NCBI RefSeq assembly: GCF_000016645.1
Contig: NC_009441.1
Coordinates: 4,836,001 to 4,900,000, forward strand
Origin: Flavobacterium johnsoniae UW101
Lineage (GTDB): Bacteria > Bacteroidota > Bacteroidia > Flavobacteriales > Flavobacteriaceae
Reading direction: 5' to 3'
DNA: 64,000 nucleotides
The notes under the pieces are model-generated. The model ran no database searches and was not told the DNA's origin. It saw only the letters and a list, made by a program, of their open reading frames with translations. Shown here in pieces: positions 2,730 through 14,560 of the stretch (position 1 is its first letter; each line of letters starts with the position of its first letter). A program made the translations under genes and the position numbers.

Positions 2730-3365
2730 ATGATCCTTAATCATTTTAATTGCAGTAATTGTCGACAAATGCATATTGATACTGATTTACTTTATACCTG
2801 GGGAGCCGTTGCAAAAAAAGTCCCAAAACATGCCGTCATCTTTTTCGAGAATGACCCGCCCCTTTCCTATTATCAAATTTTAGAGGGAACCGTTAAAATG
2901 AGTTATACCAATGAAGACGGCAAAGATCTTACAATTGGTATTTTTAATGAAGGAAATAGTTTTGGAGAACCGCCCTTATTTATTGAGCAGCCCTACCCTG
3001 CTTCTGCAGAAGCTCAAACTGATTGTGTAATTTTAAAACTATCAAAAACCAATTTCTTTTCGCTGCTTGAAGAAAATCCTGAAATACAATCAAGGGTTTT
3101 AAAACTCTTTGCGTGGAAAATTTACAATAAAATTGTTTTCTCCAAAAATATAATAAATCACAAACCAGAATACCGCATTCAATATTTTCTGGATAATTTA
3201 AAAAGACAGCATAACAGCAAACCTTCTCAGAAAATGAAAATTCCTTATACAAGACAGGAGATTGCAGATTTCACCGGTCTTCGTGTAGAAACAGTCATTA
3301 GAACAATTTCATTAATGAATAAAAACAAAAAAATCGAAATCATCGATCATAAATTGTTTTACTAA
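2730..3365 (+). CDS. Crp/Fnr-family regulator, probable redox or NO sensor
   Basis: 211 residues. The N-terminal cyclic-nucleotide-binding-type beta-roll spans about 25-125, with the GEPPLF turn near 79, followed by a dimer helix and a C-terminal helix-turn-helix (about 165-205, TRQEIADFTGLRVETVIRTI). Cys8 and Cys11 form a CxxC and Cys99 lies in the roll, reminiscent of the cluster cysteines of FNR (three N-terminal plus one internal) but with one fewer, so Fe-S binding is uncertain. In the recognition helix VETVIR the Glu and Arg that read TGA in FNR (VETISR) are kept, while the FNR Ser is Ile. Neighbours (hemoglobin, RIC, NrdD/NrdG) and palindromes nearby suggest it controls the anaerobic/nitrosative regulon. 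The start is the first ATG after the terminator. Confidence 0.8.
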   Translation: MILNHFNCSNCRQMHIDTDLLYTWGAVAKKVPKHAVIFFENDPPLSYYQILEGTVKMSYTNEDGKDLTIGIFNEGNSFGEPPLFIEQPYPASAEAQTDCVILKLSKTNFFSLLEENPEIQSRVLKLFAWKIYNKIVFSKNIINHKPEYRIQYFLDNLKRQHNSKPSQKMKIPYTRQEIADFTGLRVETVIRTISLMNKNKKIEIIDHKLFY

Positions 3366-3399: not shown

Positions 3400-3444
3400 T
3401 ATGATTCAAATCATATTTCTGAAAAAATGGTTTGTCTTTCTTTG
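3400..3444 (+). promoter_or_regulatory. Crp/Fnr operator 1 with -7 element, reading away from the regulator gene
   Basis: TATGATTCAAATCATA (3400-3415) is a perfect 7-bp-arm palindrome. Exactly 29 nt lie between its dyad axis and TTTCTTTG (3437-3444), a one-mismatch match to TAnnTTTG. This equals the spacing at nadA, the hemoglobin gene and ribB. The implied start site near 3449 puts the axis at about -41.5, the class II activator position. No protein-coding gene follows within the next 70 bp on this strand. Confidence 0.65.
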
Positions 3445-3448
3445 TAAA

Positions 3449-3521
3449 GGTTAAAGAAAATTATTAATTCAGCTTAATAAAATTCAAATTAAAAACGGGA
3501 TTCCTTAGATTCCCGTTTTCT
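3449..3521 (+). ncRNA. Candidate Crp/Fnr-activated small RNA
   Basis: A transcript starting near 3449 from operator/promoter 1 would run about 72 nt to the hairpin at 3492-3519. There is no ATG in this stretch and no plus-strand gene until nadA at 4220, so the output would be non-coding. The arrangement resembles E. coli FnrS, an FNR-induced small RNA, but no sequence similarity is claimed. Alternatively operator 1 may act on something else and the hairpin may serve only the hemoglobin gene. Confidence 0.4.
3492..3519. terminator. Bidirectional terminator hairpin
   Basis: AAAACGGGA (3492-3500) pairs with TCCCGTTTT (3511-3519). On the minus strand it immediately follows the hemoglobin stop codon and gives a U-rich tail. 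On the plus strand TTTTCTTT follows, so it could also end the putative small RNA. Confidence 0.7.
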
Positions 3522-3893
3522 TTAATTAACCACTTTATTCATCATTGCTTTTGCAATATTTTTGGCTCTTATTTTTACCTCATCAGCCTTTTCTCCTTCA
3601 AACAAATCATCGACCGTTTTTCTCCATAATTGAGTCCAGTGCAAAAAATGAGTTTCGCTTAAAGTGCTTTTATCATTCAGCAGGCGGTGTTTCATCATTG
3701 GGTTTCCGTCAAAATTTCCGGTATGAAAAAGAATATTATCCCAAAAATCATACATAATCGGGAGGTGTTTTTCCCAATTCACAACAGCTATTTTGGTAAA
3801 CAAATAACCAATTGTTTCGTCAGTTTGAATTTTGTGATAAAAAGCATCTACCAATACTTTGATATCTTCCTTATTTCTAATATCGGTTTTCAT
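3522..3893 (-). CDS. Group III truncated hemoglobin
   Basis: 123 residues, the usual size of a truncated globin. Features include an early Phe-Tyr segment VDAFYHKI, WEKHLPIMYDFWDNILF in the region of helices B to E, KHRLL with His69 as the likely proximal heme ligand, and the downstream HFLHWTQLWRKTVDDLFEG block typical of the group III (Ctb-like) clade. These proteins bind O2/NO and are linked to NO detoxification or peroxide chemistry at low oxygen. It is transcribed away from the nad/nrd operon, with its own palindromic operator about 85 bp upstream of the start. The shared operator type and the nearby RIC gene support a nitrosative-stress role. Confidence 0.85.
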   Translation of the reverse strand: MKTDIRNKEDIKVLVDAFYHKIQTDETIGYLFTKIAVVNWEKHLPIMYDFWDNILFHTGNFDGNPMMKHRLLNDKSTLSETHFLHWTQLWRKTVDDLFEGEKADEVKIRAKNIAKAMMNKVVN

Positions 3894-3943
3894 GTCCTTG
3901 TTTTTAATTTCTTTCTATTTCCAAACTATAGAAAACTTTAGAT

Positions 3944-3988
3944 CAAAAATCCAAAACTAATAGTTCATAAAGTATGATTGTAATCATA
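3944..3988 (-). promoter_or_regulatory. Crp/Fnr operator 2 and -7 element for the hemoglobin gene
   Basis: TATGATTGTAATCATA (3973-3988) is a perfect 7-bp-arm palindrome. Read on the minus strand, 29 nt separate its axis from GATTTTTG (3951 down to 3944), a one-mismatch -7 element. The predicted start is near 3939, leaving a leader of about 46 nt. A better isolated -7 match, TAGTTTTG (3959 to 3952), lies 8 nt closer and would break the common spacing. Confidence 0.65.
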
Positions 3989-4052
3989 TCCTGCTAAAAA
4001 ACATTGATTTCAAGAGATTTACTTCTACAATAAAAAAATAAATGTAAAACAG

Positions 4053-4097
4053 TATGACTGGAATCATAATTTGAAAAATTTGATGATACTACATTTA
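4053..4097 (+). promoter_or_regulatory. Crp/Fnr operator 3 and -7 element for the nadA operon
   Basis: TATGACTGGAATCATA (4053-4068) is the same palindrome with one arm mismatch. Its axis is 29 nt before TACATTTA (4090-4097), which matches TAnnTTTG except the last base. The predicted start near 4102 gives a leader of about 118 nt to nadA. The 3894-4219 gap otherwise holds only operator 2 and AT-rich sequence. Confidence 0.7.
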
Positions 4098-4219
4098 CCA
4101 TATCAAAATTAGCTTAACAGCATTTCGAAAAACAAATTTCAATAAAAACCACAAACTTTCTCAACAGCAGTATTTCATTAAAAAATGGGCTTTGCTGTTG
4201 AAAAAACAAGACTTTAATA

Positions 4220-5152
4220 ATGGACAAAAAATTTTTGATACAGGAAATCATCCGCTTAAAACAAGAAAAAAATGCTGTAATTCTGGCTCATTATTATCAA
4301 AATGAGGAAATTCAGGAAATAGCAGATTTTATTGGAGACAGTCTTGAATTATCAAAAAAAGCACAAAATACAAATGCCGATGTTATTGTTTTTGCCGGAG
4401 TTCACTTTATGGCAGAAACTGCCAAAATATTAAATCCTGACAAAAAAGTTGTACTTCCGGATTTCAACGCAGGATGTTCTCTCGCTGACGGCTGCAATCC
4501 TAAAGATTTTAAATTATTTAAAGAAAAATATCCTGATCATGTTGTTGTAACTTACATCAACTGTTCTGCCGAAATAAAAGCAATGAGCGATTTGGTCTGC
4601 ACTTCATCAAACGCAGCAAAAATTATTGGTTCTATTCCTTCTGATAAAGAAATCATTTTTGCACCCGATAAAAATTTAGGCAGTTATTTAAAAAAAGAAA
4701 CACAACGCGAACTAATCCTCTGGGATGGATCTTGTGTAGTTCACGAAGCCTTTTCGCTGGATAAACTAGTCGAAATTTACAATAAAAATCCAAACGCAAA
4801 AATTGCGGCACATCCGGAATCTGAAAGTCATATCTTAAAAGCAGCACATTACATTGGCTCTACTTCCGGCATTATTAATTTTATTAAAACGGATCCTGCT
4901 GCCGTTTTCATTGTGGCTACAGAAGCCGGTATCCTGCATGAGCTTTCAAAAGCGGTACCCGAAAAAACGCTGATTCCGGCTCCTTCCACAGAAGATAACA
5001 CTTGCGCCTGCAGCGAATGTGCTTTCATGAAAGTCAATACTCTTGAAAAATTGTATTGGTGTCTGAAAAACGAAAGCCCGGAAATCCTGGTAAACGAACC
5101 GTTAAGGATCGAAGCACTGAAACCTATACAAAGAATGCTTGAATTGTCTTAA
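4220..5152 (+). CDS. nadA: Quinolinate synthase (NadA)
   Basis: 310 residues, normal for the family. NadA condenses iminoaspartate with dihydroxyacetone phosphate to quinolinate on a [4Fe-4S] cluster in the cytoplasm. The three expected cluster cysteines are visible in AGCSLADGC, DGSCVVHE and CACSECAFMK. Other family motifs are the N-terminal LAHYYQ, FAGVHFMAETAKIL and the C-terminal PAPSTEDNTCAC. It is the first gene of the run nadA-nadB-ric-nrdD-nrdG with short gaps (17 bp to nadB) and follows operator 3. An oxygen- and NO-sensitive Fe-S enzyme beside an Fe-S repair protein makes sense in this operon. Confidence 0.95.
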   Translation: MDKKFLIQEIIRLKQEKNAVILAHYYQNEEIQEIADFIGDSLELSKKAQNTNADVIVFAGVHFMAETAKILNPDKKVVLPDFNAGCSLADGCNPKDFKLFKEKYPDHVVVTYINCSAEIKAMSDLVCTSSNAAKIIGSIPSDKEIIFAPDKNLGSYLKKETQRELILWDGSCVVHEAFSLDKLVEIYNKNPNAKIAAHPESESHILKAAHYIGSTSGIINFIKTDPAAVFIVATEAGILHELSKAVPEKTLIPAPSTEDNTCACSECAFMKVNTLEKLYWCLKNESPEILVNEPLRIEALKPIQRMLELS

Positions 5153-5169
5153 ACTTAAAAACAAAGAAA

Positions 5170-6693
5170 ATGCTTAAAACAGATATACTTATAGTAGGTT
5201 CTGGTATTTCGGGATTATTTCTTGCCATGAAAACAGCAAAAAAACGTCCTGATTTATCGATTGTGATTATGACAAAGAAAACGGCAGGAAACACTAATAC
5301 ACAGCTTGCACAAGGCGGAATTGCCGTTGTAACCAATCATTTACAGGATAGTTTTGAGCAGCATATAAAAGATACACTGAAATCAGGAGGCGGACATTGT
5401 GATGAGGAAATTGTAAAAATGGTAGTGCAGCAGGCACCGGAAAGGTTAAAAGAATTAATTGAGATTGGGACTTCTTTTGATAAAAATCAAAACGGTCAAT
5501 GGGATTTAGGTCTAGAAGGCGGACATTCTCAGCATAGAATTCTGCACCATAAAGACAGATCTGGTTTAGAAATAGAAAAAAAGCTGCTCCATATTATAAC
5601 AGAATTGCCTAACATAAAATTATTCGAAAATTATCAGGTTGTCGATTTAAATACCGAAACAAAAGAAAATGAAACACATTGTACAGGTGCTTTTTTTTAT
5701 GATAAAAACGAAAACAAAATAAAATATATCCGCGCCAGATCGATAATATTAAGCACAGGAGGATGCGGGACTCTTTTTGAAAACACAACAAATCCTGAAA
5801 TTGCAACCGGAGACGGAATTGCCATTGCAGCGCGTGCAGGTGTAGAAATTGAAGATATGCAGTACATTCAGTTTCATCCTACGGCTTTGTACACTGGCAA
5901 AAAAAGCCAGCTCTTTTTAATTTCAGAAGCCGTTAGAGGTTTTGGTGCTTATGTAGTAAATGAAGACCAAAAAAGGTTTTTATTTAAATACGATTCAAGA
6001 GGCGAACTTGCCACACGTGATATTGTTTCACACGCCATTCATAAAGAAATGCATGAAACACAAAAAAAACATGTTTATCTCGATTGCAGGCATTTAGATA
6101 AAAAAGCTTTCTACAAAAAGTTTCCCGCTATAACAGCACATTGCAATGAACTGGGATTGTTTCCTGAAAAAGATTTGATTCCTATAGTTCCTGCAGCACA
6201 TTATCAATGCGGCGGCATAAAGGTAGACCGTAATGGAGCAACAATAATTCCTAATTTATATGCGGTTGGCGAATGCGCCAGAACGGGACTTCATGGAAAA
6301 AACCGTCTGGCTTCTAATTCCCTGCTCGAAGCTTTGGTATTTGCACATCAGGCATCAGAGAATATAGACAAAACAATAGATTCGTTTCAGTTTTCATCAA
6401 AACTGCTTATTCCAAAATTTCCCGATTCGGAAATCAAAACTGATTATGTTGCCTTTTTAATTTTAAAAAAAGAAATACAGGCACTTATAACCAATTTTTA
6501 TTCCAGCGAAGAACGCAATACCGATTATGCAATTCAAAAAATAAAATTGATTAAAAATGCAGCCGAAACCCTTATACACGGCCAGGAAATTACAATTCCG
6601 TTTATAGAATTTTCTAATATGCTTACCGTGGCCTTAATTATTATTAAACACTGCAAAAAAAGAAAAGCCCCATATATTTTGTCTTTAAACTAA
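5170..6693 (+). CDS. nadB: L-aspartate oxidase (NadB)
   Basis: 507 residues. It oxidises L-aspartate to iminoaspartate with FAD, feeding NadA, and can use fumarate instead of O2 as acceptor, as known for the E. coli enzyme. The dinucleotide-binding glycines GSGISG are at 10-15, then AQGGIAVV and the succinate dehydrogenase/fumarate reductase flavoprotein-type motifs GGHSQHRILH, DMQYIQFHPT, EAVRGFGA and HYQCGGI. The FAD-domain tail carries GECARTGLHG and NRLASNSLLEALVFA. It sits 17 bp after nadA and 11 bp before ric, so co-transcription is near certain. Confidence 0.95.
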   Translation: MLKTDILIVGSGISGLFLAMKTAKKRPDLSIVIMTKKTAGNTNTQLAQGGIAVVTNHLQDSFEQHIKDTLKSGGGHCDEEIVKMVVQQAPERLKELIEIGTSFDKNQNGQWDLGLEGGHSQHRILHHKDRSGLEIEKKLLHIITELPNIKLFENYQVVDLNTETKENETHCTGAFFYDKNENKIKYIRARSIILSTGGCGTLFENTTNPEIATGDGIAIAARAGVEIEDMQYIQFHPTALYTGKKSQLFLISEAVRGFGAYVVNEDQKRFLFKYDSRGELATRDIVSHAIHKEMHETQKKHVYLDCRHLDKKAFYKKFPAITAHCNELGLFPEKDLIPIVPAAHYQCGGIKVDRNGATIIPNLYAVGECARTGLHGKNRLASNSLLEALVFAHQASENIDKTIDSFQFSSKLLIPKFPDSEIKTDYVAFLILKKEIQALITNFYSSEERNTDYAIQKIKLIKNAAETLIHGQEITIPFIEFSNMLTVALIIIKHCKKRKAPYILSLN

Positions 6694-6704
6694 AAACCAA
6701 TATT

Positions 6705-7436
6705 ATGAAAATAACCAGTAAAACTACAATTGGCGAGATCGCAGCAAATGATTTTAGAACAGCAGCAATTTTTACAAAATACAATATCGATTTTTGCTGC
6801 AAAGGCCACCGCACTATAGAAGAAGTCTGCAAAAAAAGAGACATTCCCGAAGCGGTTTTAATTGAAAAACTTGAAGAAGCCAAAACTCAGGCCGCTAATC
6901 AATCTTTCGACTATAAATCCTGGCCGTTAGACCTTTTAACGGATTATATTATAAAAACCCATCATCGATACATAAAAGAGAAAACGCCTGTACTGCTTCA
7001 ATATTTACATAAATTATGCAATGTATATGGCGAAACGTTTCCTGAATTGTTCGAAATATATAAAATTTTCAAAGCATCATCTTTAGACCTTGAAGAACAC
7101 ATGGAAAAAGAAGAACGCGTGATGTTCCCTTTCATCATTCAAATGAAAAGAGCGCAGAGCAAAGGATTTTCTGTTGAAACTACTCCCTTTGGAAGCATTG
7201 AAAATCAGGTCATCATGATGAAAGAAGAACATGCCGCAGAAGGACAGCGTTTTAGAAAAATTGCAGCATTGACCAATAATTATGTTCCGCCGGCAGAAGC
7301 CTGCAATACTTACAAAGCAGCATTTTCGATGCTGGAAGATTTTGAAATGAATCTGCACAAGCATATTCACATGGAAAACAATATACTGTTTCCTAAAGCA
7401 ATTATGCTTGAAAAAAACTTTGAGCAAGTGCCTTAA
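6705..7436 (+). CDS. ric: Di-iron repair-of-iron-centres protein (RIC/YtfE/ScdA)
   Basis: 243 residues. The N-terminal ScdA_N domain (about 1-60) carries the diagnostic NIDFCCKGH near residues 26-34. A hemerythrin-like four-helix domain (about 85-235) supplies the di-iron ligands, with His/Glu in THHRYIKE, LEEHMEKEERVMFPF, KEEHAAEG and HKHIHMENNILFP. RIC proteins restore Fe-S clusters damaged by NO or peroxide. The gene is 11 bp after nadB and 12 bp before nrdD, and nearby substrates are obvious (NadA, NrdG). The gene symbol varies in the literature (ytfE, scdA, norA). Confidence 0.9.
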   Translation: MKITSKTTIGEIAANDFRTAAIFTKYNIDFCCKGHRTIEEVCKKRDIPEAVLIEKLEEAKTQAANQSFDYKSWPLDLLTDYIIKTHHRYIKEKTPVLLQYLHKLCNVYGETFPELFEIYKIFKASSLDLEEHMEKEERVMFPFIIQMKRAQSKGFSVETTPFGSIENQVIMMKEEHAAEGQRFRKIAALTNNYVPPAEACNTYKAAFSMLEDFEMNLHKHIHMENNILFPKAIMLEKNFEQVP

Positions 7437-7448
7437 ATTATAAATATC

Positions 7449-9572
7449 ATGGAAAAATATGTGATCAAACGAAACGGAGATTATAAACCTTTTGAAGCTT
7501 ATAAAATTCAGGATGCCATCCAGAAAGCTTTTAAAAGCGTCAATCTGCCGATGGATAAAAAAATTCTGAAAATCGTTCTAAACGGACTCGAACCAAAATA
7601 TTCGTGGCCTGTTGAGGAGATTCAGGATAGTATAGAACGTGTGCTTTTTGAAAACGGTTATTTTAAAACCATGCGTTCCTTTATTATCTATCGACATACC
7701 CGAAAACTCCAGAGAGAACATATTAACGGCCTAAACGACGATACAACGTATGTAGACAGCACACAAACGGTTGAAGAATACATCAATCAATCTGACTGGC
7801 GTATTAATGCCAATGCTAATACATCGTACTCAAATGCCGGTTTAGTAAGCAATACTGCCGGTAAAATTATTGCCAATTACTGGCTCGATAAAATTTATAC
7901 TAAAGAAGAAGGCGCCTCACACCGAAACGGAGATATTCACATTCATGATCTGGACTGCCTTACGGGATATTGTGCCGGATGGAGCTTACGTGTTCTTTTA
8001 AACGAAGGTTTCAACGGCGTTCGCGGCCGTGTAGAAAGCAGACCTCCTTCGCATTTTAGGGAAGCTTTGGGGCAGATGGCTAATTTTCTGGGAATTCTGC
8101 AAAGCGAATGGGCAGGCGCTCAGGCTTTCAGTTCTTTTGATACATATCTAGCTCCTTATGTTTTCAAAGACCAGCTTTCTTACGATCAGGTTTTAAAAGG
8201 CATTAGAAGTTTTGTTTACAACCTCAATGTTCCGGCAAGATGGGGACAATCTCCTTTTACGAATATAACCTTAGACTGGAATGTGCCAAACGATCTTAAA
8301 GAACAGATTCCGACAAGAAATGACGAACATTTGTTTCTGTATTCAGATGATCCCGAACTGGTTTATAAAGCTAAAAAAAGAGGGGTTAATAAACTGACTG
8401 ATTTAAAATATGCCGATTTCCAAAACGAAATGAACCTAATCAATAAGGCATATTATACCATCATGACAGAAGGCGACACAAATGGACAGCCTTTTACCTT
8501 CCCTATTCCAACTGTAAATATTACGGAGGATTTTGACTGGGAAGGCGAAAATGTCGATTTATTATTTGAAAACACAGCCAAGATAGGGTCTTCTTATTTT
8601 CAGAATTTTATTGGAAGCCAGTATATTTTAAATGAAAATGGAAATAAAATCGAAAATCCAGAAGCTTACAAACCCAACGCTGTCAGAAGTATGTGCTGTC
8701 GTTTACAGCTCGATCTGCGCGAATTATTAAAACGAGGAAATGGTCTTTTTGGAAGTGCAGAAATGACAGGCAGTATTGGTGTTGTAACCATTAATATGGC
8801 CCGTTTGGGATATCTGTATAAAGGAAATATTATAAACTTATTTGATCATTTAAATGATCTGCTTCAGATTGCCAAATCGACTTTGGAGAAAAAGAGAATC
8901 TTTATTCAAAAAATGTACGACCGTGGTTTGTATCCTTATACACAGCGCTATTTGTCACATTTTAGAAACCACTTTTCCACCATTGGCGTAAACGGAATGA
9001 ATGAAATGGTACTCAATTTTACTGATGGAAAACAAGATATTACAACAAGTTCAGGAATTCATTTTGCTGAAGAAATTTTAGATTACATCCGTTCGAGAAT
9101 GAAAGAATTTCAGGCAGAAACCGGAAATTTATACAATCTGGAAGCTACTCCCGCAGAAGGAACTACCTATCGTTTTGCCAAAGAAGATAAAAAACGTTTT
9201 CCAGAAATCCTGCAGGCCGGACATGGAGAAAATATTTATTACACAAACAGTTCGCAGATTCCGGTAGATCATACAGATGATCCGTTTGAAGCTTTACTGC
9301 TTCAGGACGCTTTACAATGTAAATATACCGGCGGTACCGTTCTGCATTTGTATATGAGAGAAAAAATAAGCAGTCCTGCTGCGTGTAAAAACTTCGTAAA
9401 AAAAGTGCTGACCAATTTTAAACTGCCTTATATAACAGTAACGCCAGTTTTCAGTATCTGCCCAATTCATGGATACCTGGACGGTGAGCATGAATACTGC
9501 CCAAAATGCGATGAAATATTGTTAAATGAAAATAACCAAAAAGCTATACTATATGAAAACACTGTATCATAA
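7449..9572 (+). CDS. nrdD: Anaerobic ribonucleoside-triphosphate reductase, catalytic body without glycyl-radical tail
   Basis: 707 residues. An ATP-cone occupies about 1-95 (YVIKRNGDYKPFEAYKI to IIYRHTRKLQRE), followed by the class III barrel with HIHDLD, GYCAGWSL, PFTNITLDW, MCCRLQLDLRELLKRGNGLFG and MTGSIGVVTINMARLGYL. Near the C-terminus SICPIHGYLDGEHEYCPKC provides the metal-binding cysteines. The frame stops at 9572, before the glycyl-radical loop every class III enzyme needs. That loop is encoded in the next frame (9526-9717). A change of frame within 9526-9572, possibly at the five-A run 9538-9542, would restore one protein of about 755 residues. Whether this is a natural split, a programmed shift, a mutation or a sequence error cannot be told here. 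Confidence 0.9.
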   Translation: MEKYVIKRNGDYKPFEAYKIQDAIQKAFKSVNLPMDKKILKIVLNGLEPKYSWPVEEIQDSIERVLFENGYFKTMRSFIIYRHTRKLQREHINGLNDDTTYVDSTQTVEEYINQSDWRINANANTSYSNAGLVSNTAGKIIANYWLDKIYTKEEGASHRNGDIHIHDLDCLTGYCAGWSLRVLLNEGFNGVRGRVESRPPSHFREALGQMANFLGILQSEWAGAQAFSSFDTYLAPYVFKDQLSYDQVLKGIRSFVYNLNVPARWGQSPFTNITLDWNVPNDLKEQIPTRNDEHLFLYSDDPELVYKAKKRGVNKLTDLKYADFQNEMNLINKAYYTIMTEGDTNGQPFTFPIPTVNITEDFDWEGENVDLLFENTAKIGSSYFQNFIGSQYILNENGNKIENPEAYKPNAVRSMCCRLQLDLRELLKRGNGLFGSAEMTGSIGVVTINMARLGYLYKGNIINLFDHLNDLLQIAKSTLEKKRIFIQKMYDRGLYPYTQRYLSHFRNHFSTIGVNGMNEMVLNFTDGKQDITTSSGIHFAEEILDYIRSRMKEFQAETGNLYNLEATPAEGTTYRFAKEDKKRFPEILQAGHGENIYYTNSSQIPVDHTDDPFEALLLQDALQCKYTGGTVLHLYMREKISSPAACKNFVKKVLTNFKLPYITVTPVFSICPIHGYLDGEHEYCPKCDEILLNENNQKAILYENTVS

Positions 9573-9717
9573 AATTCCTGAAAAACTAAATGCTAAAAGA
9601 AGCAAATGTTTAGTATACACAAGAGTAATGGGCTATCACAGGCCAGTAGAAAGTTTTAACATTGGAAAAAAAGGCGAACATCAGCAGCGAACGCATTTCA
9701 AAGAAATTTTGGTCTAA
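9553..9717 (+). CDS. nrdD: Separate glycyl-radical C-terminal segment of NrdD
   Basis: This frame is open from 9526, just after a TAA at 9523. ATGs at 9526 and 9553 are both possible starts; from 9553 it gives 54 residues beginning MKTLYHKIPEKL. It contains YTRVMGYHRPVESFNIGKKG, the glycyl-radical loop of class III ribonucleotide reductase, with the radical Gly at codon 9631-9633 and a conserved RTHF-type tail. It overlaps the nrdD stop by 20 nt, and NrdG overlaps its end. Read as one gene with 7449-9572 it is a one-base frameshift; read alone it is an autonomous radical module, comparable in principle to GrcA (YfiD), which replaces the tail of pyruvate formate-lyase. Confidence 0.75.
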   Translation: MKTLYHKIPEKLNAKRSKCLVYTRVMGYHRPVESFNIGKKGEHQQRTHFKEILV

Positions 9718-10390
9718 TAAAGCTGTTTACAGCATAACCCCTTTTACCTTATTAGACTACCCGGATAGAGCAGCCTGCATTGTGTGGTTTACGGGCTGTA
9801 ATATGCGGTGTTCCTATTGTTACAATCCGGATATTGTTTTTGGGAAAGGAAAACTGGACTTTGAAAACATTCTTAATTTTCTAAAATCCCGAATTGGATT
9901 ATTAGACGGAGTCGTTTTAAGCGGCGGCGAATGCACCATTCATAAAAATATTATTCCGTTTATTGAAGAAATAAAAGCCTTAGGATTTATTGTAAAAATT
10001 GATACTAACGGCTCAAAACCAGCTGTTTTAAAAAAACTGATCGATCAAAAACTAATCGATTACGCCGCTTTAGATTTTAAATCCCTGTCTTTAACTTTTA
10101 AAACCATAACTCAATCTAACCTATTTGCTGAATTTGAAGAAAGTCTGAAACTTTTAATGAATTCCTCCATTCCGTTTGAAGTCCGGACTACGCTTCATTC
10201 AGCACTTATAACCCCAACACAGTTTTTAAAAATGACCGAATATCTCGAAAACCTGAATTATAATGGAAATTATTACGTCCAGTATTTTATAAATAATGTT
10301 CCCACTATTGGCGATTTAGGACATTCAGAAAGACTGTTGAAATCTGAAAATTTCTCAACCTCAAAAATAAACGTCATTTTTAGGGAATAA
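9662..10390 (+). CDS. nrdG: Anaerobic ribonucleotide reductase activating protein (radical SAM)
   Basis: The radical SAM motif CNMRCSYC (CX3CX2C) follows YSITPFTLLDYPDRAACIVW, the typical N-terminus of Bacteroidota NrdG-like activases. GGECTIHKN and KIDTNG are the SAM-binding strands. It would make the glycyl radical on NrdD using reduced [4Fe-4S] and SAM. Recognisable homology begins near 9722, but no in-frame ATG or GTG precedes it. The only conventional start is TTG at 9662, giving 242 residues and a 56-nt overlap with the glycyl-radical frame, so the true start is uncertain. Translational coupling to the upstream stop at 9717 is plausible. Confidence 0.85.
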   Translation: MEKKANISSERISKKFWSNKAVYSITPFTLLDYPDRAACIVWFTGCNMRCSYCYNPDIVFGKGKLDFENILNFLKSRIGLLDGVVLSGGECTIHKNIIPFIEEIKALGFIVKIDTNGSKPAVLKKLIDQKLIDYAALDFKSLSLTFKTITQSNLFAEFEESLKLLMNSSIPFEVRTTLHSALITPTQFLKMTEYLENLNYNGNYYVQYFINNVPTIGDLGHSERLLKSENFSTSKINVIFRE

Positions 10391-10432
10391 TACACTACTG
10401 TTTTTTAACGCTTTCTTCTAAAATATTGTATT

Positions 10433-10879
10433 ATGACACTTCACCATTTTATTTTAATAATTCACCTTCTGGCAGCCACAATCTGGGTTGGCGGACATCT
10501 TACGCTTAGTATTGTTTTTCTGCCTTCGGCTTTAAGAAAAAAAGACCCCAATATTATTTTAAATTTTGAACGAAAGTTCGAAACTCTCGGTATGTCATCG
10601 CTTATTACACTTGTCATTACCGGAATCTGGATGGCATACGATTTTGGCGTTACAATCGATACCTGGTTTACATTTTCCGGCAGTTTTGAAAAAGTAGTTT
10701 CTGCTAAGCTGTTACTTCTCTTTCTTACTATAATCTGCGCTCTTATTGCCCAGTTTAAGATCATTCCAAACCTAAACGAATTCAATATAAAGAAAATGGC
10801 GGTGTTAATTATTTCCGTTACTTTAATTGGAGTTACAATGCTTATTTTAGGATCGACTTTGAGATACGGCGGCATATAA
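10433..10879 (+). CDS. Small CopD-like four-helix membrane protein
   Basis: 148 residues with four hydrophobic helices (about 5-25, 52-72, 85-105, 122-142). His-containing helix starts (HHFILIIHLLAATIWVGGH) resemble the CopD/putative copper-export and related b-heme membrane families. It lies 42 bp after nrdG on the same strand and could be the last gene of the anaerobic operon. Function is unknown; the conserved His residues suggest heme or copper binding. Confidence 0.5.
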   Translation: MTLHHFILIIHLLAATIWVGGHLTLSIVFLPSALRKKDPNIILNFERKFETLGMSSLITLVITGIWMAYDFGVTIDTWFTFSGSFEKVVSAKLLLLFLTIICALIAQFKIIPNLNEFNIKKMAVLIISVTLIGVTMLILGSTLRYGGI

Positions 10880-10890
10880 ATTCACAAAAA

Positions 10891-10914
10891 AAACCGCAAA
10901 TAATTTTACGGTTT
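10891..10914. terminator. Bidirectional terminator between convergent genes
   Basis: AAACCG (10891-10896) pairs with CGGTTT (10909-10914), and AAA/TTT pairs extend the inner stem. A-rich and T-rich flanks suit termination in both directions. Confidence 0.6.
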
Positions 10915-10925
10915 ATCTCTGTTTG

Positions 10926-11114
10926 TTAATTTCTCTTTTTCTGCTGTCCCGGTGCATAAGGCTTAGCACTTTTACTGCCAGACATTTTCTTCGCCTGTCC
11001 CGGAGGAATTTTTCCCGAATTAGGAGATGAAGATGAACTATGTGTACTGCATCCTGCAATAAATAATGCTATTAACACAAAAGATAGAATTTTAATTAAA
11101 TCAGCTTTTTTCAT
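10926..11114 (-). CDS. Small basic lipoprotein of the PPGQ-KK type
   Basis: 62 residues. The signal peptide ends in lipobox FIAGC, then a Ser-rich spacer and a short basic module containing IPPGQAKKMSG and YAPGQQKK. Proteins with this PPGQ(A/V)KK repeat are common in Bacteroidota and uncharacterised. The product is expected to be a lipid-anchored periplasmic or outer-membrane peptide. No function can be assigned. Confidence 0.6.
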   Translation of the reverse strand: MKKADLIKILSFVLIALFIAGCSTHSSSSSPNSGKIPPGQAKKMSGSKSAKPYAPGQQKKRN

Positions 11115-11172
11115 TTAGTTATTTTTTAGTCAAAAATAGAGGTTTAAAAACAAGAAAAAGACAGGAAATAAA

Positions 11173-11205
11173 AAAACCTGCAAATGATTTATCATTGCAG
11201 GTTTT
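11173..11205 (-). terminator. Terminator after the 11226-11426 lipoprotein gene
   Basis: AAAACCTGCAA and TTGCAGGTTTT form a strong hairpin, extended internally by ATGAT/ATCAT, with A/T-rich flanks. It follows the minus-strand stop codon at 11226. Confidence 0.7.
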
Positions 11206-11225
11206 AGTTTTTAATTTAAAATTTT

Positions 11226-11426
11226 CTATTTCTTAATAGAATCTGCCGGCATTGTTCTAACAGTATCTGTAGAAGTTGTATCTACTTCAGGCCCTACAGT
11301 GTCTATTATAGTTTCTGTAGAATCTGTTGTTACAGGTTCAACCGTTGTTTCGTTCTTCTTACATGAAAATGCCAATCCTGTCAGCAGGATCAATAATGCA
11401 ATTTTAGTTTTTAATATCGTTTTCAT
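11226..11426 (-). CDS. Small acidic Thr/Asp-rich lipoprotein
   Basis: 66 residues. Lipobox LAFSC with the cysteine near residue 22, then KKNE and a low-complexity tail of Thr, Asp, Ser and Val with DTTSTDTV. No fold or family is recognised. It is monocistronic, with its own terminator. Confidence 0.55.
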   Translation of the reverse strand: MKTILKTKIALLILLTGLAFSCKKNETTVEPVTTDSTETIIDTVGPEVDTTSTDTVRTMPADSIKK

Positions 11427-11535
11427 AATTATATTTTTTTACTGTTTGTATTCAACTTAATATTCCAAATTTAAAAAACTGGCAGTCAATACAATTACAT
11501 AATTATTACTATCATTTATAAGAATCCAAGAAATG

Positions 11536-13137
11536 CTACTCCTCGTACATTTCCATCCAAAGACGCGTTTCTTCCAGATCGAGTTCTTTTTCTATTTTAC
11601 GGAAAATTTCTTCGTTTACAGAACCTTTTTTGTGCATGCTCTCAAGTTTACTGCGCTCAACATTCAAAAGATCGATTTGAACTCTCGTAAACTCATTAAA
11701 AATCTGGCCGTCTAATACTTTTCCGTTTCCAAAAAAGTTAGCCGGAAGTTCTGTTTTTTGCAAACGGTTAAATTTTACTTCGTATTTGCTCTTAATGTTA
11801 TGCAGTAATTCATCATCTAATAAAGAGAAATTATCTTCAATATGCGAAATGGTTTCAGAAACGATTACGTTGCGGACATTATATTCTTCTGCTAAAATAG
11901 AATAGCGTTCTATTTTGAGTTTTTTAATAAGCCACGGAAGTGTAAGTCCCTGAATAACCAATGTTGACAATATTACACAGAAAACCAAATATATAATTAA
12001 ATTACGAAGCGGAAATTCTTCTGTTTTATTCAACATTAACGGAAGTGCCAGAGCAGCTGCCATCGAAACCACACCGCGCATACCAGACCAGCCAAAAACA
12101 ATCATGTTTCGATAATCAAATTCTTCTTTTTCCCGGATTCTTTTACTTAACATTCTAGGAATCACAGTAGCAGGAATCACCCATAAAAAACGAACAACAA
12201 TAACTACAATACTAATTACTGATCCCCAGATAAATAAAGCATTCCCTGAGTAATTGCTGATTCCATCCATAATCTGGCGCAGCTGAAGACCAATTAAAAT
12301 AAAAATTAATCCGTTGAGAATGTTATTTAAAACATCCCATATAGTATTGGTCATGATTCGGCTTTCATGAGAAAAAATAGCTCCTGTTCTTGCCGCTAAA
12401 AAAAGACCTGTTGCAACTACCGCTAAAACTCCTGAACCATGAAAATGTTCTGCAATTAAATACGATGCAAAGGGTGTCAGTAATGTAAGCGTTACTTCGA
12501 TAATGTCATCGCAGACAAATTTTTTATGAATGTAATACATGATAAAACCTACTGCCAAACCTACTGCAATACCTAGAACCGACATTAAAACAAAGTTTAA
12601 TCCTGCCTGCCATAAAACGAAATTTCCTGCTGTAATAGCCGTAAGTGCATATTTGTAAGCAACAAGACCACTGGCGTCATTTACAAGACTTTCTCCTTCT
12701 AGAATGGCAATTAATCTGGGATGCAGCCCTAAACCTTTAGTAATGGCTGTTGCCGAAACCGCATCTGGAGGCGATACAATAGCACCAAGTAAAAAAGCTA
12801 ACGGCCAGGAAATATCATCTATAAGCCAGTGCGCCACAACAGCGACCAAACCTGTAGTAAAAAAAACCAAACCAACAGCTGCTAAAGTTATGGGACGTAT
12901 GGTTTGTTTAAAATCGGACCAGCTTGTATGCCATGCTGCATGATATAAAAGAGGCGGCAAAAAGATAATAAAAACAATTTCCGGGCTCAGTGCTATTACT
13001 GGAAGTCCCGGAATAACGCTGATAATTACACCGCACATTACCAAAACAATAGGAATTGGAAAATTATATCTTTTACTTATTAAACTAAGAAAAGCTACGC
13101 CAAAGAGTAACATTATAATTACTGTGATATTTTCCAT
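11536..13137 (-). CDS. CPA1-family Na+/H+ antiporter
   Basis: 533 residues. About twelve hydrophobic segments fill residues 1-410, followed by a ~120-residue charged cytoplasmic tail. GESLVNDASGLVAYKYAL is the ion-binding/transport signature of NhaP/NHE-like (CPA1) exchangers, and ALLLGAIVSPPDA-like (FLLGAIVSPPDAVSATAI) and GWSGMRGVVSMAAALALP are further family motifs. It would exchange Na+ or K+ for H+ across the inner membrane. It is transcribed alone, divergently from ribB. Confidence 0.85.
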   Translation of the reverse strand: MENITVIIMLLFGVAFLSLISKRYNFPIPIVLVMCGVIISVIPGLPVIALSPEIVFIIFLPPLLYHAAWHTSWSDFKQTIRPITLAAVGLVFFTTGLVAVVAHWLIDDISWPLAFLLGAIVSPPDAVSATAITKGLGLHPRLIAILEGESLVNDASGLVAYKYALTAITAGNFVLWQAGLNFVLMSVLGIAVGLAVGFIMYYIHKKFVCDDIIEVTLTLLTPFASYLIAEHFHGSGVLAVVATGLFLAARTGAIFSHESRIMTNTIWDVLNNILNGLIFILIGLQLRQIMDGISNYSGNALFIWGSVISIVVIVVRFLWVIPATVIPRMLSKRIREKEEFDYRNMIVFGWSGMRGVVSMAAALALPLMLNKTEEFPLRNLIIYLVFCVILSTLVIQGLTLPWLIKKLKIERYSILAEEYNVRNVIVSETISHIEDNFSLLDDELLHNIKSKYEVKFNRLQKTELPANFFGNGKVLDGQIFNEFTRVQIDLLNVERSKLESMHKKGSVNEEIFRKIEKELDLEETRLWMEMYEE

Positions 13138-13243
13138 TTTTTACTGCGGGTATTTTATTGTTTAGGATTATAATTTCTGGGTACTAAATTAAGATTTTAT
13201 GATAATTAAATTAGAATAACACTAAAAAAGTATATCCAATTTA

Positions 13244-13287
13244 TTGACTTATATCAAACTTTTAGATTCCAGACAACTGTACATTTG
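13244..13287 (+). promoter_or_regulatory. FNR-like operator 4 and perfect -7 element for ribB
   Basis: TTGACTTATATCAA (13244-13257) matches the FNR consensus TTGAT-N4-ATCAA at all but one base. Exactly 29 nt lie between its axis and TACATTTG (13280-13287), a perfect TAnnTTTG. The predicted start is about 13292, 34 nt before the ribB ATG. The geometry is identical to operators 1-3. Confidence 0.7.
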
Positions 13288-13325: not shown

Positions 13326-13988
13326 ATGATAAGTACAGAAATAAGTCCGTTAGTACAATTTGGAATAACCAGTAAAGAACGGGTTGAAAACGCCCTAGAA
13401 CAGCTAAAAAACGGAAAAGGTATTATCGTAACCGATGATGAAGACCGCGAAAATGAGGGCGATCTGATTTTTTCTGCCCACCACATGAATACTGCAGATA
13501 TGGCTTTAATGATTCGTGAATGCAGCGGTATTGTCTGTCTCTGCCTTCCAAATGAAAAAGCAGACCAGCTTGATCTTCCTTATATGGTAAAAGAAAATAC
13601 AAGCAGTTTCCAGACTCCTTTTACCGTTACGATCGAAGCCAAAAAAGGCGTTACAACCGGAGTTTCTGCAGCTGACAGAATTACAACCATTAAAGCTGCT
13701 ATTGCACAAAATGCAAAACCGGAAGATCTGGCAAGGCCCGGACATATTTTTCCGCTTCGCGCGAGAGATAATGGCGTTTTAGAACGAAACGGCCATACAG
13801 AAGGAAGTGTCGATTTAATGAAACTGGCGGGTTTACAGCCCGAAGCCGTTCTTTGCGAATTAATGAATGAAGACGGCAGCATGGCTAAACTGGACAAAAT
13901 CATTAGCTTTGCACAACAGCACGACTTAGTAGTTTTATCTATCGAAGATATTCTACACTACCGTAAATTTGTGCGTGATTATAACTAA
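13326..13988 (+). CDS. ribB: 3,4-dihydroxy-2-butanone 4-phosphate synthase
   Basis: 220 residues, a single-domain RibB without GTP cyclohydrolase II. It converts ribulose 5-phosphate to the four-carbon precursor of riboflavin. Active-site motifs are [15 protein letters not shown] near 36-50, [28 protein letters not shown] and [12 protein letters not shown]. Only 2 bp separate it from a Crp/Fnr gene, so the two form an operon under operator 4. No FMN-riboswitch-like leader fits in the ~34-nt predicted leader. An extra, regulator-linked ribB suggests raised flavin demand under low oxygen or stress, which is inference. Confidence 0.92.
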
Positions 13989-13990
13989 AA

Positions 13991-14560
13991 ATGATATACG
14001 AACAGCTTGGTAATTATATTAAAAAAAGCATTGAAGTTTCGGATGAAGATTTAAATACCATTCTCTCCTATTTCAAACCTTTAAAAAAAAGTAAAAATGA
14101 GTTACTGCTGGAACAGGGACAAACCAGCCAGCAGACTTTTTTTATTGGAAAAGGCTGTATAAGAATCTTTTTTATTAATGAAGAAGGAAAAGACGTTACC
14201 CGATATATTGCTTTTGAAAATCAGTTTGCCACAGCTTTAGTTAGTTTTATAACCAAAATGCCTGCTCAGGAAAACATTCAGGTAATCGAGAAATCTGAAT
14301 TACTCGCCATCACACACGAAGATTTTAATCATTTAATGAAGATTATTCCGCAATGGAGAGAGTTTTACAGCAATTACTTAGAGAAAGCTTATGTAAATAA
14401 TGCCAATCGATTAATGTCGTTTACAACTATGGACGCTTTGGAACGTTACAATCAATTACTCAAAATTAATCCCACTATCGTAAAAAGACTCCCAAATAAA
14501 ATAGTGGCTTCGTATATCAATATTTCGCAGGAAACCTTGAGTCGATTGAAATCAAATTAA
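13991..14560 (+). CDS. Crp/Fnr-family regulator encoded with ribB
   Basis: 189 residues. The beta-roll domain (about 20-120) carries LLLEQGQTSQQTFFIGKGCI and GKDVTRYIAFENQF; the C-terminal helix-turn-helix ends in YINISQETLSRLK. The recognition helix QETLSR has the Glu-x-x-Ser-Arg pattern of FNR (VETISR), in keeping with the FNR-like TTGA half-site in front of its own operon, so autoregulation is likely. There is no N-terminal cysteine cluster, hence no sign of an FNR-type Fe-S sensor. The protein ends soon after the recognition helix, as many short Bacteroidota Crp-like proteins do. Confidence 0.8.
   Translation: MIYEQLGNYIKKSIEVSDEDLNTILSYFKPLKKSKNELLLEQGQTSQQTFFIGKGCIRIFFINEEGKDVTRYIAFENQFATALVSFITKMPAQENIQVIEKSELLAITHEDFNHLMKIIPQWREFYSNYLEKAYVNNANRLMSFTTMDALERYNQLLKINPTIVKRLPNKIVASYINISQETLSRLKSN

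Follow-up and report, generated by a model that had tools for sequence, protein, structure and literature searches.

Crp/Fnr-type operators at a fixed distance from Bacteroidota -7 elements, and a candidate small RNA, near crpA of Flavobacterium johnsoniae

Why should four palindromes in one stretch of a bacterial chromosome all lie at exactly the same distance from a promoter element? The stretch in question (the window) comprises 64,000 nucleotides (nt) of Flavobacterium johnsoniae UW101, C1:4836001-4900000 of the 6.10-Mb single-contig genome G000, and the palindromes, sites 1 to 4, have a TGAY...RTCA core like that of Crp/Fnr operators. Three of them lie close to crpA, a Crp/Fnr regulator gene, and the fourth lies ahead of ribB and a second regulator gene, crpB. 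We regard as probable a reading in which Crp/Fnr-family activators use all four as operators of class II promoters, sites 1-3 being bound by CrpA and site 4 by another family member, with a short RNA made from site 1. The activator, centred at -41.5, with 29 nt between the dyad and the Bacteroidota -7 element, would replace the upstream promoter contact. At sites 1-3 one conserved position of the -7 element differs from consensus, which is frequent among activator-dependent promoters.

A fixed spacing between operator and -7 element

The four palindromes and their elements have the positions and letters originally described, and the dyad axis lies exactly 29 nt from the first base of a TAnnTTTG-like element in each; this corresponds to 23 nt between RTCA and the element, hereafter gap 23. 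Operator 1 (TATGATTCAAATCATA, 3400..3415, plus strand) is followed by TTTCTTTG (3437..3444, plus strand, 5/6 match). Operator 2, the globin promoter, is on the minus strand (3973..3988) with GATTTTTG at 3944..3951 (5/6), and operator 3, the nadA promoter (4053..4068, plus strand), is followed by TACATTTA (4090..4097, plus strand, 5/6). Operator 4 (TTGACTTATATCAA, 13244..13257, plus strand) is of a different subtype and is followed by TACATTTG (13280..13287, plus strand, 6/6). Comparison with the 16 loci in the named genome collection that encode a close CrpA, all from Flavobacterium, shows that site 1 is a strict palindrome in 14/16 (L003 has one mismatch and L015 has lost it) with TTTG in place in all except L015. 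The GAnnTTTG of site 2 is kept in all 15 relatives whose sequence reaches that stretch (L012 does not), and the three syntenic relatives all have operator 3 with TAnnTTTA at the 29-nt distance.

There are eight TGAYN4RTCA palindromes in the window, and an element matching at least 5/6 at gap 23 is present only at the four sites reported and not at 5478, 21714, 28876, or 56805. Given a local background of 24/1298 positions, the chance that all four would share a gap is roughly 6e-5 over 31 gaps. A whole-genome scan for perfect TGAYN4RTCA/TAnnTTTG pairs at gaps of 8-38 yields 40 pairs, with 13 at gap 23 (P 2e-10 versus equal gaps), four at 24, two at 22, and no more than three at any other, and the reversed pattern has one match at gap 23. 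Site 4 is the only window site among these 13, the others being imperfect. The window statistic and the genome-wide peak together bear out the view that equal spacing at four sites exceeds chance.

A fixed-gap scan was extended to 296 Bacteroidota genomes, with gap 23 compared to the seven next smaller and the seven next larger gaps, and at least one gap-23 match is present in 123 of them. Counts were tallied for the 73 nearest genomes. F. johnsoniae itself has 13 gap-23 pairs versus 9 at the lower and 8 at the upper gaps; the numbers are 133 versus 61/69 in 17 genomes of the same genus (14-fold; four reversed matches), 130 versus 38/40 in 12 of the same family (23-fold; one reversed), 24 versus 18/56 in six of the same order (4.5-fold; none reversed), and 112 versus 99/103 in 37 of the same class (8-fold; seven reversed). 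Among the matches listed for five of 20 relatives, 37 of 110 pairs are at gap 23; for G010 the matches listed are 22 of 25. The counts relative to neighbouring gaps and to the reversed controls establish that the peak is real and wide. The highest count of all 296 genomes is in G423, of the same phylum, with 28 gap-23 pairs and no reversed match.

The significance of 29 nt follows from promoter mapping in a related species. A map of 5′ ends in F. psychrophilum locates the TAnnTTTG box between -12 and -5 (PMC9723704), such that a dyad 29 nt upstream of the box start would be at -41.5; in the main text of that paper neither Fnr nor Crp occurs. The axis-to-element distance is exact and the transcription start is extrapolated from F. 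psychrophilum, in line with the proposal of Crp/Fnr-type operators at the class II position. The position -41.5 is that of class II activation by CRP and FNR in Escherichia coli, with which these promoters share the palindromic TGA..TCA core; the differences are that the partner here is the Bacteroidota TAnnTTTG -7 element and that a 30-nt variant is used too. A literature search, mostly at the level of titles and the beginnings of abstracts and in a collection short of subscription papers, revealed no account of this spacing and none of a Flavobacterium regulon under Crp/Fnr control. Class II geometry as such is long established and is met here unchanged within a new promoter grammar; what is new is the link between regulator, nos genes, and globin, together with a small RNA candidate.

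Several observations weigh against this interpretation. The tallied genomes are related and the P values are therefore overstated. In the six same-order genomes (G016, G249, G364, G417, G429, and G433; family f5) the operator/-7 spacing may be longer, because gaps 24-30 hold 56 pairs and gaps 16-22 hold 18. A 30-nt spacing accounts for four pairs in F. johnsoniae, and in distant relatives, where 18 palindromes precede crpA, it occurs toward the gene eight times and away from it 12 times. The -7 elements are imperfect at three of the four window sites, and at site 2 a perfect TAGTTTTG lies nearer, 21 nt from the axis, a weak point of the fixed-spacing claim. When one mismatch is permitted, the genome shows no excess of the flanked palindrome TATGAYN4RTCATA (89 versus 115 reversed), so that the palindrome alone predicts little, and the 30 matches to the cyclic-nucleotide-binding (cNMP) domain in the genome represent possible alternative binders. 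The bare palindrome core is enriched (379 versus 222). As a candidate globin -7 element, TAGTTTTG was rejected, as it is perfect in none and a 5/6 match in three of 15 relatives, versus 15/15 for GAnnTTTG at 29 nt. Elsewhere in the genome (G000:C1:1308073-1309022) TGATTARYGTCA recurs every ~93 bp in at least 10 copies; this is a tandem repeat, and its copies are probably not operators.

The globin, nos, and nadA promoters

Site 2 faces a leftward gene for a group III truncated haemoglobin (3522..3893, minus strand), identified by similarity to PDB 2ig3 (E 1.1e-10) and without a Pfam or NCBIfam match at 0.001. Site 3 faces an array of plus-strand genes encoding the quinolinate synthase NadA (4220..5152), the L-aspartate oxidase NadB (5170..6693), the Ric/YtfE di-iron protein of iron-sulphur (Fe-S) repair (6705..7436; TIGR03652), the anaerobic ribonucleotide reductase NrdD (7449..9572), and an NrdG-type activase (9662..10390; TIGR02495). 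The original assignment of the globin and nadA-nrdG as likely targets is supported.

The relatives reveal a different use of site 2. In L004 the genes convergent with crpA are ordered cytochrome c-nosZ-nosL-nosD-ABC ATPase-membrane protein-globin, and the NosZ (TIGR04246, 927 bits) is one we take to belong to clade II; L001 and L012 have the same order of open reading frames (ORFs), judged by eye, as far as their sequences reach. At all 12 such loci the nos operator is a single palindrome with gap-23 elements on both sides, GAnnTTTG toward nos and either TACCTTCG or TATCTTCG in the opposite direction. L002 (F. johnsoniae strain CI04, which has sites 1-3), L003, and L005 resemble the window, with the globin gene directly after GAnnTTTG and nadA-nrdG beyond, and no NosZ scores over the cut-off in the F. 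johnsoniae genome. The conservation of GAnnTTTG and the lack of nosZ suggest, most simply, that operator 2 is an old nos-operon promoter now serving the globin alone. From the synteny of its gene with nos and globin genes, CrpA is probably a nitrogen-oxide- or nitric oxide (NO)-responsive activator of the nos/globin cluster.

This resembles the DNR and NnrR regulons (PMC1274295), which likewise have a Crp/Fnr regulator, nos, globin, or dnrN/ytfE targets, and an FNR-like box; the system here is in another phylum, with TATGA flanks and a Sec-type NosZ. It also resembles the NssR-Ctb system of Campylobacter, which again pairs a Crp/Fnr regulator with a group III truncated haemoglobin, and the matched structure 2ig3 is of Ctb type.

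Site 1 and a candidate small RNA

Site 1 was originally placed before a gene-free segment. There is no ATG in 3448-3520, and the segment is probably either an RNA gene or a relic promoter. It lies in a 156-bp interval between the convergent crpA and globin genes that is conserved in the 16 relatives, where the TTTG of the -7 element is followed by GGTTAAA, AAATTATTAATTCA, and a stem. We predict a small RNA (sRNA) of ~73 nt at 3448..3520 (plus strand), ending in a terminator-like stem (3493..3520, unstranded) between the crpA/sRNA side and the globin gene, with nine predicted pairs, two of which have two-sided changes. The fold z of -3.7 for the segment derives largely from this stem, and a consensus terminator scan reported no terminator. 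A search against Rfam gave six matches with E <= 1, none at gathering score (the best had 24 bits versus 56 needed).

A covariance model (R1) built from 17 site-1 sequences was searched against 150 genomes of the genus and has matches in 72 at E <= 0.1, mostly weak. The eight best (E < 1e-6) are in the eight genomes with a CrpA of at least 85% identity, and as five of these contributed to the model only G050, G104, and G117 are new. Ten weaker matches lie on the crpA strand downstream of genes for a CrpA with 48-56% identity; they are not separate sRNA genes, as the matching block belongs to the 3′ untranslated region (3′ UTR) of a fasciclin gene, assigned from PF02469 in L075. At these distant loci all 10 fasciclin promoters have TATGAYTnnACnCATA, and in 9/10 it is followed at gap 23 by an element with TTTG as its last letters; G044 has the operator, element, a truncated fasciclin end, block, and stem. 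The window arrangement is what would remain without the fasciclin coding sequence. Between crpA and the fasciclin gene at distant loci there are similar ORFs of ~410 residues, hydrophobic by eye (e.g. L107:2095-3324); the L107 protein, the only one searched, has no Pfam match.

One alternative, to which we give somewhat short of even chances, is that no functional RNA is made and that site 1 represents either the decaying relic of a promoter or an operator with a titrating or feedback effect on CrpA. In more distant species a promoter of this build at the corresponding position does drive a gene that is absent here, and the palindrome is lost in L015; against this, the site 1 geometry is kept across the clade, and the palindrome has an information content of 1.56 bits, the -7 element 1.60, and the 5′ block of the RNA 1.51, versus 0.76 for the spacer. 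Conservation of these remaining parts suggests an RNA, and our best guess is that site 1 specifies an activator-dependent sRNA left after loss of the fasciclin gene, consisting of leader, 3′ UTR, and terminator. A fuller scenario, offered tentatively, is that deletion of the whole coding sequence joined the CrpA-dependent fasciclin promoter to the gene's own conserved 3′ UTR element (AATTATTAATTCA) and terminator, and that the product is an FnrS-like riboregulator under nitrogen-oxide control that outlived the fasciclin gene and, in the window lineage, the nos operon as well.

The AATTATTAATTCA element is not unique to the crpA locus, which accounts for 15 of its 80 matches in 16 genomes (nine reversed); of the other 65, 19 were inspected and are partly in ORFs and partly before terminator-like stems. 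In three genomes, including that of F. johnsoniae (L130:475, L132:514, and L142:501), a conserved block of ttaagggttggct, AATTATTAATTCA, and a stem lies without an ORF less than 1 kb from a tRNA gene; it has no Rfam match at gathering score except the tRNA, and is a possible unknown RNA.

The nearest parallel found is the HcpR-SnoA pair of Bacteroides thetaiotaomicron, in which a noncoding RNA lies downstream of a Crp/Fnr nitrosative-stress regulator gene (PMC13370916); SnoA is antisense to the hcp promoter and its level is unchanged by deletion of hcpR, whereas here a predicted class II operator precedes the candidate RNA. The FnrS sRNA of E. coli is likewise a short RNA behind an FNR-family operator. 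The candidate in the window differs in lying between two genes and in its apparent derivation from a lost gene.

Regulators and target genes

CrpA (2769..3365, plus strand; 198 residues) is a member of the Crp/Fnr family, with matches over cut-off to PF00027 (79 bits), PF13545 (HTH_Crp_2, 30.6), and PF00325 (23.1), and its start, MHIDTDLL, and sequence are conserved in 17/17. No conserved N-terminal FNR cysteine cluster was found in it. The CxxC encoded by the long crpA ORF lies outside the conserved protein and was rejected as an Fe-S ligand; because a CxxC precedes MHID in just two of the 16 relatives, CrpA is on this evidence not an FNR-type Fe-S sensor. In distant relatives (L105-L126) 18 of the 22 crpA genes have TGAYN4RTCA within 300 bp upstream, in many cases flanked in both directions by -7 elements at gaps 23-24; there is none in 15 testable close relatives (L005 excluded), and L016 has an imperfect one.

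Of the 30 cNMP-domain matches in the genome, 28 score over the cut-off, and all except C1:2971732 (i.e. 29) were aligned for a tree. CrpA and c1834 form a clade with support of 1.00 and share the stretch TGLRVETVIR, and each of their genes adjoins TATGAYTnnAATCATA sites and a globin gene. Nine strict TATGAYN4RTCATA sequences are present in the genome, of which five fit TATGAYTnnRATCATA: window sites 1-3, a site next to c1834, and another flanked by a transporter and a porin-like gene. Site 4 lacks the TA flanks and its core is identical to that at a queD-like gene. It precedes ribB (13326..13988, plus strand; TIGR00506) and the short Crp-like regulator gene crpB (13991..14560, plus strand; PF00027), sister to c3833 with support of 0.965; the c3833 gene has a site with 29-nt spacing too. 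From these patterns we infer that CrpA would bind sites 1-3 and another family member site 4.

It is unlikely that sites 1-3 are instead bound by an FNR-type oxygen sensor, either fnr3018 or c5599. Those two proteins, which group with c5368 next to the CrpA clade with weak support (0.64), two of the three members of this group having N-terminal cysteine pairs or triplets, do have CxxC or CxxCx4C at their N-termini, and nrdD-nrdG are typical anaerobic genes. However, the ccoN site near fnr3018 is TGATAATTATCA rather than the TGAYTnnAATCA found beside crpA and c1834, and it is crpA that is syntenic with sites 1-3.

The wider set of promoters with this spacing bears on the claim that the four sites form one small regulon. 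Eleven of the 13 gap-23 sites are upstream of a gene start in the correct orientation, and the two within ORFs (C1:1262525 and C1:3295605) are probably due to chance. The genes served are those for a QueD-like protein, YceI, the copper nitrite reductase NirK, a PAS protein, CcoN of a cbb3 oxidase, HemN, a universal stress protein, the CrpB paralog c3833, ORF C1:4110222-4110860, a hydrogenase small subunit, and ribB-crpB. The 30-nt sites precede a TrhP/UbiU-like gene (below NCBIfam cut-offs), another globin gene, an ORF, and a short ORF followed by a globin gene beside the CrpA paralog c1834. Several such genes are under FNR, FixK, or DNR-type control elsewhere. As the spacing spans a far larger gene set that includes usual FNR-type targets, it marks a promoter class and not one regulator, and the switches with 29-nt spacing probably turn genes on under low oxygen or nitrogen oxides. 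The small regulon is thus not supported: spacing and TGAY...RTCA core are common to all four sites, but many other promoters have the spacing and site 4 lacks both the TA flanks and the inner T...R pattern, so that control of all four by one regulator is quite improbable. Least probable is that the palindromes are repressor sites of an unrelated dimeric regulator. RNA polymerase could be blocked by a protein bound near -41; against this, the sites are adjoined by Crp/Fnr genes, the -7 elements are weak, and the core resembles the FNR/DNR box TTGATnnnnATCAA in type (PMC1274295).

The reading of CrpA as activator of sites 1-3 would name a likely regulator for flavobacterial nitrous oxide (N2O) reductase clusters, and site 1 offers a candidate case of sRNA origin through gene loss. 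With TAnnTTTG being the element read by the main sigma factor of the Bacteroidota, the spacing would provide a simple promoter grammar for Crp/Fnr activation in the phylum, from which regulons may be read in sequence.

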